Positions 1-37,301 of a DNA stretch of 64,000 nucleotides are shown piece after piece. Source of the DNA: Marinomonas aquiplantarum (GTDB lineage: Bacteria; Pseudomonadota; Gammaproteobacteria; Pseudomonadales; Marinomonadaceae); assembly GCF_003314975.1 (NCBI RefSeq), contig NZ_QNRF01000006.1:62001-126000 (forward strand), in the 5' to 3' direction. Position 1 is the first letter of the stretch; every line of letters starts with the position of its first letter. The notes under the pieces are model-generated. The model saw nothing but the letters and a program-made list of their open reading frames with translations. It had not been told where the DNA came from and did no database searches. The position numbers and the translations under genes were made by a program.

Positions 1-446
1 GGGTAAACCACAGCAAAGCGAAGCAAGGGTTGACCGTGTTTTGCACGTTCCTCAATATAACGCTTCAAGGCGGCACCATTTCGAATATCACTACTTTGCG
101 TCACATACTGCGTCAGTTCTTCATACAAAGTATTGCCAACCGTAATGCCGTTACCATTGTGACTCACCGTAAAACTGGTTTGCATGGCGGTTTTTAATGT
201 CCCAACGCCAAGGCTTGCCGCAATCGGCATGGATGCCAACATGTGTGCACCCTGCAAGATATTAAAGGTTACTTTATCGCGAATGCTGGCCCAAGACGCT
301 TCTTTCGATAGGGTTACCGGAACCCCTTCTGCCGCAAAAAAACCTTTCTCTTTGGCAATAACAAAGGGCGCACAGTCAATTAATGGAATAAAACCGATTC
401 GCACAGTCTGTTGAGATTCTAAAGAATTCTTTATCGCTAACGTCAT
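1..446 (-). CDS. nasS: NasS/NrtA-type nitrate-binding protein, N-terminal part (cut by window edge)
   Basis: Only the first ~148 codons are present; the gene runs off the left edge. The translation starts MTLAIKNSLESQQTVRIGFI and continues with a substrate-binding fold of the NrtA/CmpA family (segments IDCAPFVIAKEKGFF and LQGAHMLASMPIAASLGVG). No lipoprotein or Sec signal is evident, which fits a cytoplasmic nitrate/nitrite sensor (NasS) rather than the periplasmic transporter subunit NrtA. The start codon overlaps the nasT stop as ATGA, so the two are probably translationally coupled. In known systems NasS binds NasT and releases it when nitrate or nitrite is present. The NasS assignment rests on the NasT neighbour and the missing signal; an NrtA-like transporter component is the alternative. 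Confidence 0.8.
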   Translation of the reverse strand, partial: MTLAIKNSLESQQTVRIGFIPLIDCAPFVIAKEKGFFAAEGVPVTLSKEASWASIRDKVTFNILQGAHMLASMPIAASLGVGTLKTAMQTSFTVSHNGNGITVGNTLYEELTQYVTQSSDIRNGAALKRYIEERAKHGQPLLRFAVVY

Positions 447-1048
447 TTAGAAGCTCCCATAATTTCCATCACTGAAATGATATTACGAGCCACTTCGGTC
501 ATTCTTTGACTGCGATCCATCGCTAATTTTCTGAGGGCTTGATAAGCCGCAGGCTCATCACACTGTTGATGCTTCATAATCAACCCTTTTGCTTTATCAA
601 TTAGCTTACGGTCTTCCAACTGAGTTTTTACCGTTTCAAGCTCAGAGCGTAATGCCTGAAACTCCCTAAAACGCGCGATAGCGACCTGTAAAATCGCCTT
701 CACACTGCCACTGTTCACCCCATCGACAACATAAGCACTCACACCAGCACGAATAGCCGCTTCAACATGCCTAGAATCGTCTTCTTCGGCAAACATCACA
801 ATTGGTCTTGGGTTATCTTGGGTAAGTCGAGACATATTTTCCAACATATCTCGGTCTGGGGATTCAATGTCAATGATCACCATATCTGGCTGACATTCCA
901 TCACTGCCTGGCTTAAGTTCAGCGCATTTTCAAGGCGACGGATCACACGGTAGCCACTGTCTAACATAGCTTGCTCGACAATCGCCGCTCGGGCAGGTTC
1001 ATTATCAACCAACATAACGGTTAATTCATTCTTTGGGGGCGCAGACAT
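443..1048 (-). CDS. nasT: NasT-like ANTAR-domain response regulator (antiterminator)
   Basis: The 201-aa protein has a receiver domain (about residues 9-125, likely phospho-acceptor Asp60 in MVIID) followed by a coiled linker and an ANTAR RNA-binding domain (about 135-197, with KLIDKAKGLIMKHQ and EPAAYQALRKLAMDRS). ANTAR proteins such as NasT bind paired-hairpin leader RNAs and prevent termination ahead of nitrate-assimilation genes. The gene is first of a pair with nasS downstream (4-nt overlap) and has a sigma-54-like promoter just upstream. The target leader, probably ahead of nirB/nasA-type genes, is not in this window. Confidence 0.9.
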   Translation of the reverse strand: MSAPPKNELTVMLVDNEPARAAIVEQAMLDSGYRVIRRLENALNLSQAVMECQPDMVIIDIESPDRDMLENMSRLTQDNPRPIVMFAEEDDSRHVEAAIRAGVSAYVVDGVNSGSVKAILQVAIARFREFQALRSELETVKTQLEDRKLIDKAKGLIMKHQQCDEPAAYQALRKLAMDRSQRMTEVARNIISVMEIMGASK

Positions 1049-1089
1049 GGTGCACTCTCTATCTATACAAGCTGAATTTCAATGAATGA

Positions 1090-1105
1090 AGCAAGATATG
1101 CGCCA
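1090..1105 (-). promoter_or_regulatory. Sigma-54 (-24/-12) promoter for nasT-nasS
   Basis: Read on the minus strand the site is TGGCGCATATCTTGCT. It has the invariant GG and GC dinucleotides separated by exactly 10 nt and matches the consensus TGGCACG-N4-TTGCW except at two positions. Transcription would start near 1079, about 30 nt before the nasT ATG, leaving room for the GAGAG ribosome-binding site. RpoN control, usually with NtrC, is the common pattern for nitrogen-assimilation regulators. Confidence 0.65.
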
Positions 1106-1246
1106 CTAAAGCACATGGCTAAAATTTTAAGGAAAAACAGGTGAAATGAGGCTTAACAGAGGCGAAAGAAGAGACGTCAAATGTGTTTTGAACACAAATT
1201 AGTAGAGAAGCGCAAAAATTGTGCGCTATTTTTAGGAAGAATATTA

Positions 1247-1888
1247 TCAGCGCACTGAAAAGTGACGCTTTGCTTTCAAAGCCAAAGCAAGACGATCTCG
1301 AGTATCTGTTTTTTTGAAAACAGAGGTTAGGTGTGCTTTCACGGTTCTCTCAGTAATGGCCATCTCAGTGGCTACCTGCTTATTCGAAAGCCCTTCTGCC
1401 ACATAACGCACTACGTCCATTTCACGCTCAGACAAACCGTCCATTTCCAGAGAAGGTGAATCGACTTGTTCCGCTGATTGACTAATTAATTGCTGTATAA
1501 AGGCTTTACCGCCCCAAATTTCACCCGAATCAATGACTGACAGCACCAAAGATAACTGTTCTTCTCCTATATAAGGAGCACATTGACCATTCACACCAAT
1601 CGAAAATAAACGTAACGCAGCTTGCTGACTGGCTTGGTTTGGAAACACCAACATACTTTGAGCTGAAAACTCTGATTTTAATGTCACTAGCTCTTCGACT
1701 TGACTCGAGAACGTATCATCCGCTAGGTAGACAAAACAATATTGAAATGTTTGTTGAGACTCAATCAGCGCACGACGAGACGCCACTAAGCTGTCAACTC
1801 GAACAAGCTCTGCTCCCTGCGGGACAACTTTTAACCAATGCTCCCAAACAGCATCGTCTGTATTCCAACACAAAATTTTCAAAATCAA
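1247..1888 (-). CDS. LuxR-family DNA-binding regulator with atypical receiver-like domain
   Basis: 213 aa. The C-terminus (about 148-207) is a clear LuxR/GerE helix-turn-helix (LSEREMDVVRYVAEGLSNKQ, then ITERTVKAHLTSVFKK). The N-terminal ~125 residues have receiver-like length and a matching C-terminal end (SIGVNGQCAPYIGEEQLSLVL). The acidic cluster and the conserved switch lysine expected near residue 105 are not recognisable, so phosphorylation-independent control is plausible. It lies 100 nt downstream of lapC on the same strand and could be part of that operon or have its own promoter in the gap. Its target is unknown; control of biofilm genes is only a guess from position. Confidence 0.8.
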   Translation of the reverse strand: MILKILCWNTDDAVWEHWLKVVPQGAELVRVDSLVASRRALIESQQTFQYCFVYLADDTFSSQVEELVTLKSEFSAQSMLVFPNQASQQAALRLFSIGVNGQCAPYIGEEQLSLVLSVIDSGEIWGGKAFIQQLISQSAEQVDSPSLEMDGLSEREMDVVRYVAEGLSNKQVATEMAITERTVKAHLTSVFKKTDTRDRLALALKAKRHFSVR

Positions 1889-30210: not shown

Positions 30211-31893
30211 TTACTCTTGGCCTTCCAATTGTGCTTTGATCAAATCACCGATAGTGGTTGGACCATTTGCTTCAACTTGTTGCTTCTCAGAATGAGACTT
30301 CATCGCCGCTTTTTCTTCAGTAGCATCTTTCTGCTTGATAGAAAGCGTGATAGTACGAGCTTTACGATCAACATTGATGATCGCCGCTTCTACAGAGTCA
30401 CCTTCTTTAAGAGCAGTTGTTGCATCTTCAACACGTTCGCGGCTGATTTCAGATACTTTAAGAGTCGCTTCAACACCTTCAGAAAGTGTTACAACAGCGC
30501 CTTTAGCATCAACTTCAGAAACAGTACCGTTTACGATAGTGCCTTTGTCGTTTTCAGCAACGTAAGCTAGGAAAGGATCTTCTTCTAGTTGTTTAACACC
30601 TAGAGAGATACGCTCGCGCTCAGCATCGATAGACAATACAACTGTTTCTAGCATATCGCCTTTCTTGTATTGACGAACTGCTTCTTCACCAGCTTCATCC
30701 CAAGATAGGTCAGAAAGGTGAACTAGACCATCAATGCCGCCGTCAAGACCGATGAACACACCGAAGTCAGTGATAGACTTGATGGCACCAGAGATCTTGT
30801 CGCCTTTGTTGAAAGAAGTAGCAAATTCTTCCCATGGGTTCATTGTGCACTGCTTGATACCCAAAGAGATACGACGACGTTCTTCGTCGATATCAAGAAC
30901 CATAACCTCAACTTCGTCGCCAATTTGGACAACTTTAGATGGGTGGATGTTCTTGTTAGTCCAGTCCATTTCAGAAACGTGAACAAGACCTTCAACACCC
31001 TCTTCCAACTCGGCGAAACAACCGTAGTCAGTCAAGTTAGTAACTTTAGCCGTTACTTTAGTGTTTTCTGGGTAACGGGCTTTGATTGCTACCCATGGAT
31101 CTTCACCCAACTGCTTAAGACCTAGTGATACACGGTTACGCTCACGGTCGAACTTAAGAACTTTAACATCGATCTCATCGCCAACAGCAATGATTTCGCT
31201 TGGGTGCTTAATACGCTTCCAAGCCATGTCAGTGATGTGTAGAAGACCATCAACACCACCAAGATCAACGAATGCACCGTAGTCAGTAAGGTTCTTAACG
31301 ATACCTTTAACTTCTTGACCTTCTTCAAGAGAAGCAAGCAATGTTTCACGTTCAGCGCTGTTAGTCGCTTCCATAACGGCACGACGAGAAACAACAACGT
31401 TGTTACGTTTTTGATCAAGCTTGATAAGTTTGAACTCTAGATCCACACCTTCCAAGTGAGACGTGTCGCGGATTGGGCGAACATCTACCAAAGAACCAGG
31501 CAAGAAAGCACGGATGTTAGCGATATCAACAGTGAAGCCACCTTTGACCTTACCGTTAATCACACCATTAACGATGGCATTTTCTTCGTAAGCTTTTTCA
31601 AGCACAGACCAAGTCTCTGCACGCTTAGCTTTTTCACGAGACAATTTAGTCTCACCGAAACCATCTTCAACAGCGTCAAGTGCAACTTTAACTTCGTCAC
31701 CGATGTTTAAGTTGAACTCACCACTTTCCGTTAGGAACTGAGAACGAGGAATTACGCCTTCAGATTTAAGACCTGCATGAACAGTTACCCATTCATTGTC
31801 GATATCAACAATGATACCAGTAACAATTGAGCCTGGCGCCATTTCAACGCTTTGTAGGCTTTCTTCAAACAGTTCTGCGAAGCTTTGAGTCAT
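30211..31893 (-). CDS. rpsA: 30S ribosomal protein S1
   Basis: 560 aa with six S1/OB repeats, each ending in the RISLG- or RTITLS-type motif (for example [17 protein letters not shown] and [17 protein letters not shown]). S1 binds mRNA upstream of starts and unwinds structured initiation regions. It is preceded by a structured 5' leader (31912-32004) and by cmk, the usual arrangement. The ribosome-binding site (TAGGAAAT) is weak, as expected for an autoregulated S1 gene. Confidence 0.97.
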
Positions 31894-32074: not shown

Positions 32075-32758
32075 CTATACGAAACCCGCCTTGGCTGTTT
32101 CAGCAAGGATGATTTCGACAACTTGTTCTATGGTTAAGTCAGTACTATCGATTACAAGCGCACCGGCCGCTGGGACAAGTGGCGCGATCACACGATTCGC
32201 GTCACGCTCATCACGCTCTTTAATCGTTTTAACTAATGTCTCTAGATTAACAGTTTCGCCTTTTTGCTGCAATTGCAGAAGACGTCTTTGTGCGCGCTCT
32301 TCAGCGGACGCCGTAAGAAAGATTTTAATTTGTGCAGAAGGGAAAACAACCGTCCCCATATCACGACCATCCGCCACCAATCCTGGCGCTTGAGCAAACG
32401 CTCGCTGACGGAGTAACAAGCCTTGACGCACTTCAGGAATCGCTGCTAATTTTGATGCTGCATTGCCCACTTCTTCGGTACGGATTGCCTGAGTAACTAC
32501 CTCACCCTCAAGCACAATTTCAACCTTGCCTTCGGCCGACTGTTGGAACTGAATATCCAAATGCTCAGCCAGTACCTTTAATGTTTCCACATCATTTTCA
32601 GACATACCGTGGTGTGACACTGCCAACGCCAAAAGTCGATACAAAGCACCACTATCTAACAAATGCCATCCCAGCTTTTCCGCTACCAATTGACTTACTG
32701 TGCCTTTACCAGCACCACTTGGACCATCAATCGTAATAACTGGGCCTTGGTTAATCAT
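32075..32758 (-). CDS. cmk: Cytidylate kinase
   Basis: 227 aa. P-loop in [18 protein letters not shown]-binding region [12 protein letters not shown], and [13 protein letters not shown] plus [16 protein letters not shown] in the lid. It phosphorylates CMP/dCMP. It lies 19 nt downstream of the tyrA-aroA fusion and upstream of rpsA, an old conserved order. Confidence 0.97.
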
Positions 32759-32777: not shown

Positions 32778-35015
32778 CTATTGCGCCACCGAGCAATGTA
32801 AACCTAATTGCTTAGCCTGCGCGTCTAACTCACTAAATTCTTCTAATAATGTTTGGCAATCTTCTATTTGAGTAACTGTTTTACTTCTTACCCCAAGCGC
32901 TAACATAGCAAGCGCTAAATATTGATCACCTGCGCAGTCCAATTCCCCTCCCTGTGGAACACTGCCATCAATTCTCAAACAACCAGCTTCAATTTGTGCA
33001 TTCACTTGCACCAAACCAAACGCGTCAACCAATGCCAACACTCTATCTTCATGGTAATAAGGCAAGCACCCAATACCATCCATTCGAGATTGACCTTTGG
33101 CATAAGCCGCTGCCACACAAAGCAACGGCAATAATGTCCTTAGCTGATCCGTCTGCTCAATTGACAGCTGAAACGCTGACAACTCAGCAAAGCGCACCAC
33201 CACTTGCCCTTCATATAAACCGGAGACACCCTTCTCAGGCATTTCAATATCGGCTCCGATCTGTTTAAGCAATGCAAAAAACGCAAACGCTCTGGCATCC
33301 AAACCTAAATTCGTCATTACCAGCTCCGAACCTGGCAATAAACTGGCCAGCAATGCCATCCAGGCTGAACTGTACATATCTGCAACTATCTCAACATCCG
33401 CTGAGATCAGTTCACCCGATGCAAGCGCCACTGTGGTTTCGGAGCGCGTAACATGCACACCAAAACGCTGTAACAGCACTTCTATTTGAGTGACGCCCTG
33501 TGGCGCACACGCCAAACTCGCACCCTGCTCAGCAAACAAACCTGCCATAAACGCACTGACAATTAATTTTTGTGACGCCCCATCCAAACTAAAAGACAAG
33601 GTCTTCGACACAGCAGGCGTGATTTTAACAGGCAAACAGTCTTCACGCTCAAATGCTAATTCAGCTCCCATTGACCTTAGTAGATCAAACACATCCTTTC
33701 GAACGCGATTTAAAAGAGGGTCGTCCGCCGTGACAGAAACCTGAAAAGGCTGCCCAGCCAACACAGGTAACAACACATGCAAACTTAATTCAGACTGATG
33801 CAAATTAATTGGCGCTATTGGCGCTCTCAGACCTCGTAAGCCAACACCATGCACCCGCAACGAACTGTCTGACAGAGTCTCAATCACCACACCCATATCA
33901 CGTAATGCCTGAATCGTGACTCGAACGCCGTTATCAAGACAAACATTCGTTAATTGGCTCACACCTTTTGAAAGCGCAGCCATAGTAATCGCAATATGTG
34001 ACAAGGATTTGTCACCAGGCAAAGAAACTTCACCTTTTATAACAGACGCAGGTAAAACCGAAACAGAAACTGAACTGGTATCTTTTTGCGGCGCAATAGT
34101 ACGCTGTTCAAGCAACCTTAAGAAATGATCTCGAGCAGACTTTGCACGAGTAAAAACACCAAACATACTGGCGCCATCACCCTGCTCAATAGCCTCACGC
34201 ATATCCGCCAAACGCGCCGTGAACTGGTCAAGCGTGGCTAAGGTCGCCTCTTTGTTGGCTAAGAATACATCGCGCCACATCACAGGGTCACTGGAAGCAA
34301 TTCGCGTAAAATCACGAAAACCACCAGCTGCAAACTTAAAGACATCCTGACTACGATCACTGTTGGCTAGAGCATCAACTAAGGTATAGGCTAACAAATG
34401 AGGTAAGTGACTAGACGATGCCAACACATGGTCATGGTGCTCAACATCCATACTCACAACGTCTGCACCAATCGCGCGCCACAATCGATGCAAACGATCC
34501 ACTAGCACAGGGTCACTATCGGCGACAGGTGTTACAATCGCCATGTGCTTTTCAAACAATTGAGAGTTGGCGGCTAATACACCACTTTTCTCCGCACCAG
34601 CAATCGGATGGCCGGGAATAAAGTTAGCCGGCATATGACCGAATACGGACACCGCCGCTTCCACCACACTTCCTTTGGTTGAGCCAACATCAGTCAACAA
34701 AGTATGTTCAGCAAGGTACGGCTTAATATCAGCCAACACAGAGGCCATAGCACGCACCGGCGTAGCCAATACAATGACATCCATCTGAGCAATGTATTGC
34801 TCACTCAATTCAGCCGGATAATCAATGACTCCAGTTGAGACACCTAAGGCCAACTCACCTTCACGGCGATCAACGGCATAAAGTTCAGCCAAGCCTCTTT
34901 CTTTTAGCGCTTTCGCAAAAGAACCGCCAATCATGCCCAAGCCAACAATCATGACTTTTCCAAAGGGAAATTGGTCTTGCTTCAATTGATTTTCTGACAA
35001 CGTAGATTCACTCAT
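32778..35015 (-). CDS. Prephenate dehydrogenase fused to a degenerate EPSP-synthase domain
   Basis: 745 aa. Residues ~18-305 are an intact prephenate dehydrogenase: NAD fold [34 protein letters not shown] and [16 protein letters not shown]. Residues ~315-745 align along their length with the EPSP synthase (AroA) half of the fusion known in Pseudomonas, but most active-site residues differ. By E. coli AroA numbering: R27 to I341, N94 to Q407, G96 to E409, T97 to L410, R100 to H413, Q171 to K483, K340 to Y654, E341 to H655, H385 to Q698, R386 to Y699. K22/S23 (K336/S337), D313 (D546) and R344 (R658) remain. TyrA activity is likely; EPSPS activity is unlikely. It overlaps nothing and follows pheA by 6 nt. 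Confidence 0.9.
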
Positions 35016-35021
35016 CGCTAA

Positions 35022-36143
35022 TTACAGTACCGCCACAGGATAAGAGCCCAGCACTTTTACTTCAGCAGCACGATCTCGCAGTTCCTCAATGACAGCCTGA
35101 CATTCTGGATCTTGATAATGCCCAACAAAGTCGATGTAAAAGATGTAACCCCAACGACTCATCAAAGATGGACGCGTTTCTAGGCGAGTCATATCGACTC
35201 CGTGACGCTCAAACGCTTCCAACAAACGATACAAAGCACCCGGCTCATTCTTCGCACTGATCAATAATGACGTTTTATCTTTACCACTTGCTGGCACATC
35301 CTGCGTACCCACAATCAAAAAGCGAGTCGTGTTGTCAGGGCGATCTTCAATATTAGCCGACACCTTCACCAAATCGTATAACTCACATGCCACTTCACCG
35401 GCAATCGCCGCAATCGCTCGACCACTACGCCCCGCCTCTGCCGCCAAACGTGCTGCCTCAGCGTTAGAGCTAACTGCCACGCGCTCCACATGCGGCCAAT
35501 AGCGATCCAACCAAGCACGACACTGAGCCAAAGATTGCTGATGAGAATAAATGTGTGTCACATCATCCGCATTTACATTAGGGCTCAACAACAAATGATG
35601 ATGAATTCGCTCTTCCACCTCACCGCAAATTTTTAATTGCGAATCTCGGAAGGTATCCAAAGTGTGATTCACCACACCTTCGGTAGAATTTTCAACCGGC
35701 ACCACACCATAGTTAGCCGCACCGGATTCCACTTCACGAAACACTTCATCAATTGCCGCCATCGGCGCACTGATAATGGACTTACCAAAATGCTTCAATG
35801 CAGCCTGCTGAGTAAAAGTACCTTCAGGCCCTAAAAAGGCAATGCGCATCGGTTTTTCTAAGGCCAAACATGAAGACATAACCTGACGAAAAATTTTCGC
35901 CATTTCTTCATTACCAAGTGGCCCCTCATTGCGCTCCATAACACGACGCAATACCTGAGCTTCACGCTCAGGTCGGTAGAAAACAACCGCTTCATCGCCC
36001 TGCTCAGCCAACTTCACTTCAGCGACTTTCTCAGCACATCTGGCGCGTTCATTAATTAAGGACTGAATTTGCGAGTCAATACTATCAATGCGATCTCGCA
36101 ATAGTGGTAAGGTGTCTGGCACAGCTATTTTTGAATTAGACAT
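35022..36143 (-). CDS. pheA: Chorismate mutase / prephenate dehydratase (P-protein)
   Basis: 373 aa. AroQ-type chorismate mutase at the N-terminus (about 12-95), prephenate dehydratase (about 100-280: FLGPEGTFTQQAALKHFG, VPVENSTEGVVNHTLDTF, DNTTRFLIVG) and a C-terminal ACT domain (about 290-370: ETRPSLMSRWGYIFYIDF), where Phe feedback acts in relatives. It makes phenylpyruvate from chorismate. It sits between serC and the tyrA fusion, so phenylalanine and tyrosine branches are co-transcribed. Confidence 0.96.
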   Translation of the reverse strand: MSNSKIAVPDTLPLLRDRIDSIDSQIQSLINERARCAEKVAEVKLAEQGDEAVVFYRPEREAQVLRRVMERNEGPLGNEEMAKIFRQVMSSCLALEKPMRIAFLGPEGTFTQQAALKHFGKSIISAPMAAIDEVFREVESGAANYGVVPVENSTEGVVNHTLDTFRDSQLKICGEVEERIHHHLLLSPNVNADDVTHIYSHQQSLAQCRAWLDRYWPHVERVAVSSNAEAARLAAEAGRSGRAIAAIAGEVACELYDLVKVSANIEDRPDNTTRFLIVGTQDVPASGKDKTSLLISAKNEPGALYRLLEAFERHGVDMTRLETRPSLMSRWGYIFYIDFVGHYQDPECQAVIEELRDRAAEVKVLGSYPVAVL

Positions 36144-36147
36144 AAAA

Positions 36148-37227
36148 TTACCCGTAACGTTTCTCGAAGGCTTTCATGAAATCAATCAAGGCTTGAACAC
36201 CTTCCATTGGCATAGCATTGTAAATACTGGCACGCATACCACCAACAGAACGGTGACCTGCCAATGTACGCAGGCCAGCCGCCTCAGACTCTGCCAAAAA
36301 AGTGGCTTCTAACGATTCGTCCGCCAAGGTAAACGGCACATTCATACGTGAACGATTTTCTGGCGCAATCGGGTTCGCATAAAATGCGCTTTGATCAATG
36401 AAATCATACAAGGCTTTGGCTTTCGCTTGGTTAATCGCTTCCATTGCTGCGACACCGCCCTGCTCTTCCAACCACTCAAACACTAAATCAGCTAAATAAA
36501 TAGCGAAGGTCGGTGGCGTATTGACCATAGAATCGTGTTTCGCCAAATTGGCAAAATTCCAAATGGTTGGCAAAGAGTCGTCACAGCGAGCCAATAAATC
36601 TTTGCGGATAATACAAATCACAATGCCTGCAGGACCAACGTTTTTCTGAGCGCCAGCATAAATAACACCGTATTTGCTGACATCAATCTTGCGCGACAAG
36701 ATGGTTGACGACAAATCTGCCACAATAGGCAAATCCGTTTCAGGCAAATCCGAAAATTCTAAACCACCAATAGTTTCGTTTGGACAAAGGTGCAAATACG
36801 CAGCGCTTTCATCCAAGGCAACATCAGACCATTTCGGCACATAGGTGTAATTATCTGCTTTAGAGGAACCCACGACCTTTACATTGGTGTACTTCTTGGC
36901 TTCATTAATCGCTTTCGTCGACCAAGCACCAGTATCTAAATAACAAGCCGAATCATATCCATTCGCCAAGTTCGCTGGAATTTGAGCAAACAGAGTAGAC
37001 GCGCCGCCCTGTACAAACAATATTTCGTAGTCATCACCGATCTCTAGCAAGCGCTTTAGACGCGCTTTAGCTGACGCTAGGATTGACATAAACTCTGTAC
37101 TACGGTGACTCATTTCCATTACAGAAACACCGGCACCATGCCAATCCAACAACTCAGCTTGGGCTTTCTTCAATACCGCTTCTGGAAGTGCCGCTGGACC
37201 AGAACAAAAATTGTATACTCGACTCAT
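36148..37227 (-). CDS. serC: Phosphoserine aminotransferase
   Basis: 359 aa from the ATG at 37227 (MSRVYNFCSGPAALPEAVL), which has GAGGT upstream; a longer open frame to 37281 lacks family support. PLP Lys in YAGAQKNVGPAG. Family ends GMRASIYNAMPMEGVQAL. SerC makes phosphoserine and is also used in B6 synthesis, complementing PdxJ encoded at 9877-10602. It follows gyrA. Confidence 0.95.
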   Translation of the reverse strand: MSRVYNFCSGPAALPEAVLKKAQAELLDWHGAGVSVMEMSHRSTEFMSILASAKARLKRLLEIGDDYEILFVQGGASTLFAQIPANLANGYDSACYLDTGAWSTKAINEAKKYTNVKVVGSSKADNYTYVPKWSDVALDESAAYLHLCPNETIGGLEFSDLPETDLPIVADLSSTILSRKIDVSKYGVIYAGAQKNVGPAGIVICIIRKDLLARCDDSLPTIWNFANLAKHDSMVNTPPTFAIYLADLVFEWLEEQGGVAAMEAINQAKAKALYDFIDQSAFYANPIAPENRSRMNVPFTLADESLEATFLAESEAAGLRTLAGHRSVGGMRASIYNAMPMEGVQALIDFMKAFEKRYG

Positions 37228-37301
37228 CCCGTGTTTACCTCTAAAAATCAGGATCCAATCTAAACAAAAGCGACGCATCAAGTGCGCCGCTTTATTACTA
37301 C

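Follow-up and report, generated by a model that had tools for sequence, protein, structure and literature searches.

Loss of the active site from a full-length EPSP synthase domain fused to TyrA in Marinomonas

The tyrA-aroA fusion gene found in the window analysed here, a 64,000-nucleotide stretch of the Marinomonas aquiplantarum genome, encodes an EPSP synthase (AroA) half that has kept its full length and lost the residues of its active site, and the same genome holds a separate aroA in which every catalytic residue is present. Judged by its sequence, with catalytic residues gone, the reading frame intact and a second enzyme in the genome, this half would thereby qualify as a pseudoenzyme domain of the kind known from the dehydroquinase (DHQase) domain of Candida albicans Aro1. 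Our preferred reading, to which we assign a probability of about 0.52, is that it is a non-catalytic EPSP synthase domain retained as a folded structural partner of TyrA. The gene, its parts and its neighbours are as follows.

32778..35015, minus strand: tyrA-aroA fusion gene, 745 aa, with an ATG start and no internal stop (stop codon at 32778-32780)
34455..34919, minus strand: PDH_N (NAD-binding) domain of the TyrA half, residues 33-187 (Pfam PF02153, 112 bits)
34155..34442, minus strand: PDH_C (dimerisation) domain of the TyrA half, residues 192-287 (Pfam PF20463, 95.7 bits)
32781..34061, minus strand: AroA (EPSP synthase) half, residues 319-745, catalytically disabled according to the active-site map, with a predicted EPSPS fold (PF00275, 151.9 bits)
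33741..34052, minus strand: most constrained part of the dead half, residues 322-425 (approximately E. coli 8-112), dN/dS 0.046
33042..33065, minus strand: former catalytic loop LPYYHEDR, residues 651-658 (E. coli L337-R344)
35022..36143, minus strand: pheA (chorismate mutase/prephenate dehydratase), an ORF upstream in the same supraoperon
36148..37281, minus strand: serC (phosphoserine aminotransferase), an upstream ORF named by sequence inspection
32075..32758, minus strand: cmk (cytidylate kinase), beginning 19 bases past the fusion stop
30211..31893, minus strand: rpsA (ribosomal protein S1), downstream

The protein has the architecture of the bifunctional TyrA-AroA fusions, with prephenate dehydrogenase and EPSP synthase domains following each other on one chain in a pheA/cmk/rpsA context. 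Its TyrA half agrees with a prephenate dehydrogenase, having both PDH domains and 54 of 59 invariant sites unchanged, and the Pfam EPSP_synthase match spans residues 324-723 (profile positions 5-406 of 417). The gene order gyrA-serC-pheA-tyrA_aroA-cmk-rpsA is that of the supraoperon of pseudomonads and their relatives (PMC1173090). The source genome is 3.77 Mb in size and 100% complete, and the only close named relative found was Marinomonas sp. TW1, with an AroA half that is 90% identical.

A preliminary description of this DNA had listed ten active-site substitutions, aligned by eye. All ten (R27I, N94Q, G96E, T97L, R100H, Q171K, K340Y, E341H, H385Q and R386Y, in E. coli AroA numbering) were correct in a MAFFT alignment of E. 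coli AroA with 36 standalone AroA proteins and with 49 fusions each from Marinomonas and from other genera; the E. coli reference has a length of 427 residues, in agreement with E. coli PDB chains. D313T is an additional loss, so that eleven key S3P/PEP-binding or catalytic residues are substituted in the window copy, which retains K22, R124, S169, R344 and D384. Across the genus K340, E341, R100 and H385 were absent from all 49 fusions, with K22, S23, S169 and R344 mostly retained, and within the former catalytic loop, where K340 and E341 have become Y654 and H655, residues P652, Y653 and E656 are near-invariant. The residue map thus bore out the loss of the fused active site, and the full length without stops or frameshifts that had been described for a single copy was found in every one of the 49 genomes. 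Since they all show the same dead, full-length fusion, an assembly or single-strain artefact is excluded. Outside Marinomonas the core residues were retained in 46 of 49 fusions, the three altered ones (L136, L137 and L140) all lying in genomes with a second aroA, and the 36 standalone AroA proteins retained all listed catalytic residues, with one row differing at N94. At S170, S197, Y200, E240, N336 and K411 even the intact fusion type departs from E. coli, and changes at these positions are therefore no evidence of decay.

The separate functional aroA that the preliminary description had predicted does exist. It is located at G000:C5:129177-130400(-) (L001 1474-2769(-)), is E. coli-like and encodes 431 aa scoring 478 bits against PF00275; murA was found at C5:108781-109983. 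Fusion and standalone aroA occurred together in 48 of the 49 Marinomonas genomes, the exception being a genome that is 77% complete. A tree placed the standalone aroA genes of the order beside E. coli AroA and at a long distance from the fusion type; of the 21 genes sampled, 19 formed one clade (support 96), to which those of Marinomonas belong. The AroA tree also grouped the Marinomonas AroA half with other decayed copies, which may be a case of long-branch attraction, and this grouping was not used for counting losses.

The window AroA half scored 163.7 bits against the TIGR01356 equivalog cut-off of 287.25, and the window fusion 847.9 bits against the 902 of NF011381 (PRK14806). Two equally dead Marinomonas fusions, in G016 and G028, pass the latter cut-off with 913.8 and 911.1 bits, so that automatic annotation would label them as active EPSP synthases. 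Our results correct this annotation, as such proteins are called bifunctional EPSP synthases, and predictions that start from the fused copy, such as one of glyphosate response, would be wrong.

Modelling pointed to a complete fold for the dead half. An AF2 model of the AroA half (pLDDT 78.5, pTM 0.78) matched EPSP synthases end to end over 397-418 residues with Z of 36-38, including 5bs5, the AroA half of the Acinetobacter baumannii fusion (VIA Z 36.4). The half is thus predicted to have a full-length EPSP synthase fold, in a model whose input alignment held two intact AroA rows that may have helped the fold. The model of the full-length fusion, at pLDDT 55, was too poor for placing the interface between TyrA and AroA.

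Rates of substitution were determined by NG86, pooled over nine close Marinomonas pairs. The dead AroA half gave a dN/dS of 0.096 (95% 0.086-0.110; each pair 0.05-0.11) and the TyrA half 0.038 (95% 0.030-0.048). Compared with the 0.037 of intact fused AroA halves in genomes without a second aroA and the 0.017-0.059 of standalone aroA genes (four pairs), constraint on the dead half is relaxed two- to threefold and far from absent; comparisons between distant intact fusions, which were misaligned or saturated by this method, were left out. The constraint was unevenly spread, with 0.046 for residues 322-425, close to the value of the TyrA half, 0.121 for residues 426-600 and 0.100 for residues 601-740. 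As the N-terminal part is also slower in intact fusions (0.020 versus 0.041), its constraint is only partly special to the dead copies. In simulations of neutral change the frame was never preserved once 0.12 substitutions per site had been reached, against 49 open frames in the 49 real copies.

Among the 178 AroA sites at which intact fusions show a single residue, Marinomonas has 130 that have become variable, 35 that are unchanged and 13 that have switched to a new near-invariant residue, the corresponding figures for TyrA invariant sites being 2, 54 and 3. N357, N404, P417, R626, P652, Y653 and E656 are among these new residues. In intact fusions no part is better conserved than the pocket (mean entropy 0.06 versus 0.94 elsewhere), but in Marinomonas its variability equals or exceeds that of the remainder (1.79 versus 1.41, p = 0.06). 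Positions that are hydrophobic in intact fusions stay so in 87% of cells in Marinomonas and 94% in the dead copies of a second family described below, and invariant Lys/Arg residues are retained in only 38% of Marinomonas cells.

The same kind of loss was seen again in this second family of the order (f38, 60 genomes). There, a second aroA was lacking wherever the fusion scored above 1160 bits; genomes that have one carry, without exception, either a lower-scoring fusion or TyrA alone. Counting as dead any fusion changed at D313, K340, E341, R344 or R124, we found among 96 fusions 42 that were dead and accompanied by a second aroA, 16 alive with a second aroA, 38 alive without one, and none dead without one; the weakest case, L247, is dead only through R124K. 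The replacements in f38 were diverse (K340A/E341A, K340L/E341S, K340G/E341L, K340D/E341M, K340R/E341V, K340A/E341Q and R344P). Mapped on the TyrA tree there were at least four catalytic losses including that of Marinomonas, that is at least three more in f38, and an independent-pairs sign test of second aroA against death had only three pairs. Dead f38 copies gave a dN/dS of 0.101, with 0.028 for the N-terminal part, and the share of cells with a retained residue was 35% for PEP/catalytic sites and 72% for the remaining invariant sites (p = 0.0008). That dN/dS is close to 0.1 in both of these independent lineages supports the proposal that the domain is kept for something other than catalysis, subject to the passenger explanation considered below.

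Different stages of this process were seen in living species. In genus g47 (L192-L197) all six genomes have the fusion together with a second aroA, and some show early changes (K22R, G96A, H385P) with K340/E341 retained, possibly an intermediate stage of decay. The domain has been deleted cleanly in five genomes of two families, where tyrA is followed by cmk with no AroA between them, and it follows that TyrA can work without the AroA half. Genus g59 holds both states, with full-length dead halves in G319 and G332 (L258 and L260) and TyrA directly followed by cmk in G121 and G306 (L152 503-2136 and L265 280-1977); the remaining cases are three f6 genomes with no AroA remnant. A BLAST result had suggested that an unfused dead AroA persists in G115, but the gene, which adjoins tyrA (L189, about 1-1300(-)), is intact and of E. 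coli type. Related genomes have the native type at this place, so that aroA has here been replaced in situ in a lineage without the fusion, and no dead copy is left. Intact fusion, intact fusion with a second aroA, loss of catalysis with the fold kept, and deletion of the domain together make up a replicated natural series in the turning of a fused enzyme into a pseudoenzyme; since all its stages live in extant species, it is directly testable whether dead domains persist through function or as passengers.

The sequences show that a second aroA of E. coli type, with all catalytic residues, was acquired or retained and that the PEP-binding and catalytic residues of the fused copy were lost; we propose that the second gene was there first and made the fused copy redundant. 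The fold and full length have stayed under purifying selection throughout the genus, probably because TyrA profits from a folded partner, or at least suffers from a misfolded one. The retained fold might help TyrA by stabilising it or by holding its quaternary structure, a need that would prevent most lineages from dropping the domain easily, and where TyrA became independent the domain would have been cleanly deleted. Such a scaffold is preferred because of the genus-wide retention, the new near-invariant sites and the strongly constrained N-terminal part in two lineages. Against it, selection that acts only against misfolding can likewise keep dN/dS low, and deletion of the dead domain of C. 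albicans Aro1 gave no growth defect (PMC9074039).

Ranking close behind as the main rival, though in itself rather unlikely, is the explanation that the dead half is a frozen passenger without any positive role: copies that misfold or lose the open frame would be eliminated, and the domain would go only by a clean deletion in frame, which is rare. A nonsense mutation would be polar on the downstream cmk and rpsA, and misfolding would drag TyrA down. Such a passenger is consistent with the position of the fusion in the order pheA-tyrA_aroA-cmk-rpsA with cmk only 19 bases downstream, with the clean deletions, rather than truncated remnants, of the domain-less lineages and with the growth-neutral deletion in Aro1. 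Not one deletion was seen, however, among 49 Marinomonas species, the 13 newly near-invariant sites are poorly predicted by mere foldedness, and Pseudomonas syringae has truncated its domain (PMC1173090), so that disruption is tolerated there.

Of the roles that had been suggested earlier (regulation, scaffolding or ligand sensing), scaffolding thus stands as the best guess, and sensing at the old site found no support. A regulatory domain that binds a pathway metabolite, such as shikimate 3-phosphate, chorismate or tyrosine, and alters TyrA activity appears improbable. It would fit with the residues mostly retained in Marinomonas (K22, S23, S169 and R344), with pocket sites that evolve no faster than the average of the domain when close pairs are compared (dN 0.046, dS 0.695) and with the dead f38 copies (L240-L264), in which the S3P-binding lobe is nearly intact at E. 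coli positions 22-27, 100 and 169-171 (K22/R, S23, R27, R100, S169 and Q171) and the PEP/catalytic side is lost, so that these copies, by their residues, may still bind S3P. Special retention of this half-site was, however, not significant, as retention of the S3P residues did not exceed that of the remaining invariant sites of lobe 2 (p = 0.33 in f38 and 0.93 in Marinomonas). In Marinomonas the pocket differs widely between species and its net charge has fallen from +3 in intact fusions to 0.4, which leaves S3P sensing at the old site unsupported there. A bolder version, in which the dead domain serves TyrA as a module for allostery or assembly, senses a metabolite of the shikimate pathway and evolved in this way more than once in the order, we regard as a slightly longer shot still; if true, what was once an enzyme of this pathway would now tune tyrosine synthesis. 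It is highly implausible that the half continues to work as an EPSP synthase or carries a new enzymatic activity. The full fold and length and the presence of K22, R124, R344 and D384 in the window copy could suggest it, but the four residues lost in all 49 fusions, the changes at D313 and R386, the low TIGR01356 score and the complete second aroA speak against catalysis, and the replacement residues vary between species, so that no new conserved site is evident.

The earlier view that a domain with a regulatory, scaffolding or sensing role on an intact TyrA would be new was too strong, considering precedents in P. syringae and C. albicans. In the literature searched on dead EPSPS domains, TyrA-EPSPS fusions and Marinomonas aroA, with subscription journals mostly outside it, no such case had been reported before; the part that appears new in that literature is the existence of full-length, selectively maintained and repeatedly evolved pseudo-EPSP synthase halves. 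The PRK14806 (NF011381) fusions, such as that of A. baumannii (5bs5), share architecture, gene order, descent and EPSPS fold with the window fusion, which differs in falling below the cut-off and in being without the catalytic residues of the second activity. In C. albicans Aro1, also a shikimate-pathway multi-enzyme with a full-length dead domain, the inactive type I dehydroquinase domain is compensated by a second enzyme, Dqd1, and is dead only in species having that enzyme (PMC9074039). Enzyme, kingdom and architecture are different there, the backup belongs to an unrelated enzyme class, and deletion of the domain was shown to be growth-neutral. In P. syringae, a discarded, truncated AroF half is fused to TyrA and a standalone aroF was acquired, with a possible future as a regulatory domain suggested (Song et al. 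2005, PMC1173090). There, too, the fused AroA half lost catalysis, TyrA was retained and the standalone gene came from elsewhere, but the domain was truncated by about 200 residues and in one species, whereas in Marinomonas it is of full length, disabled by point substitutions in the active site, present in the whole genus with recurrence in another family, and under measured purifying selection.
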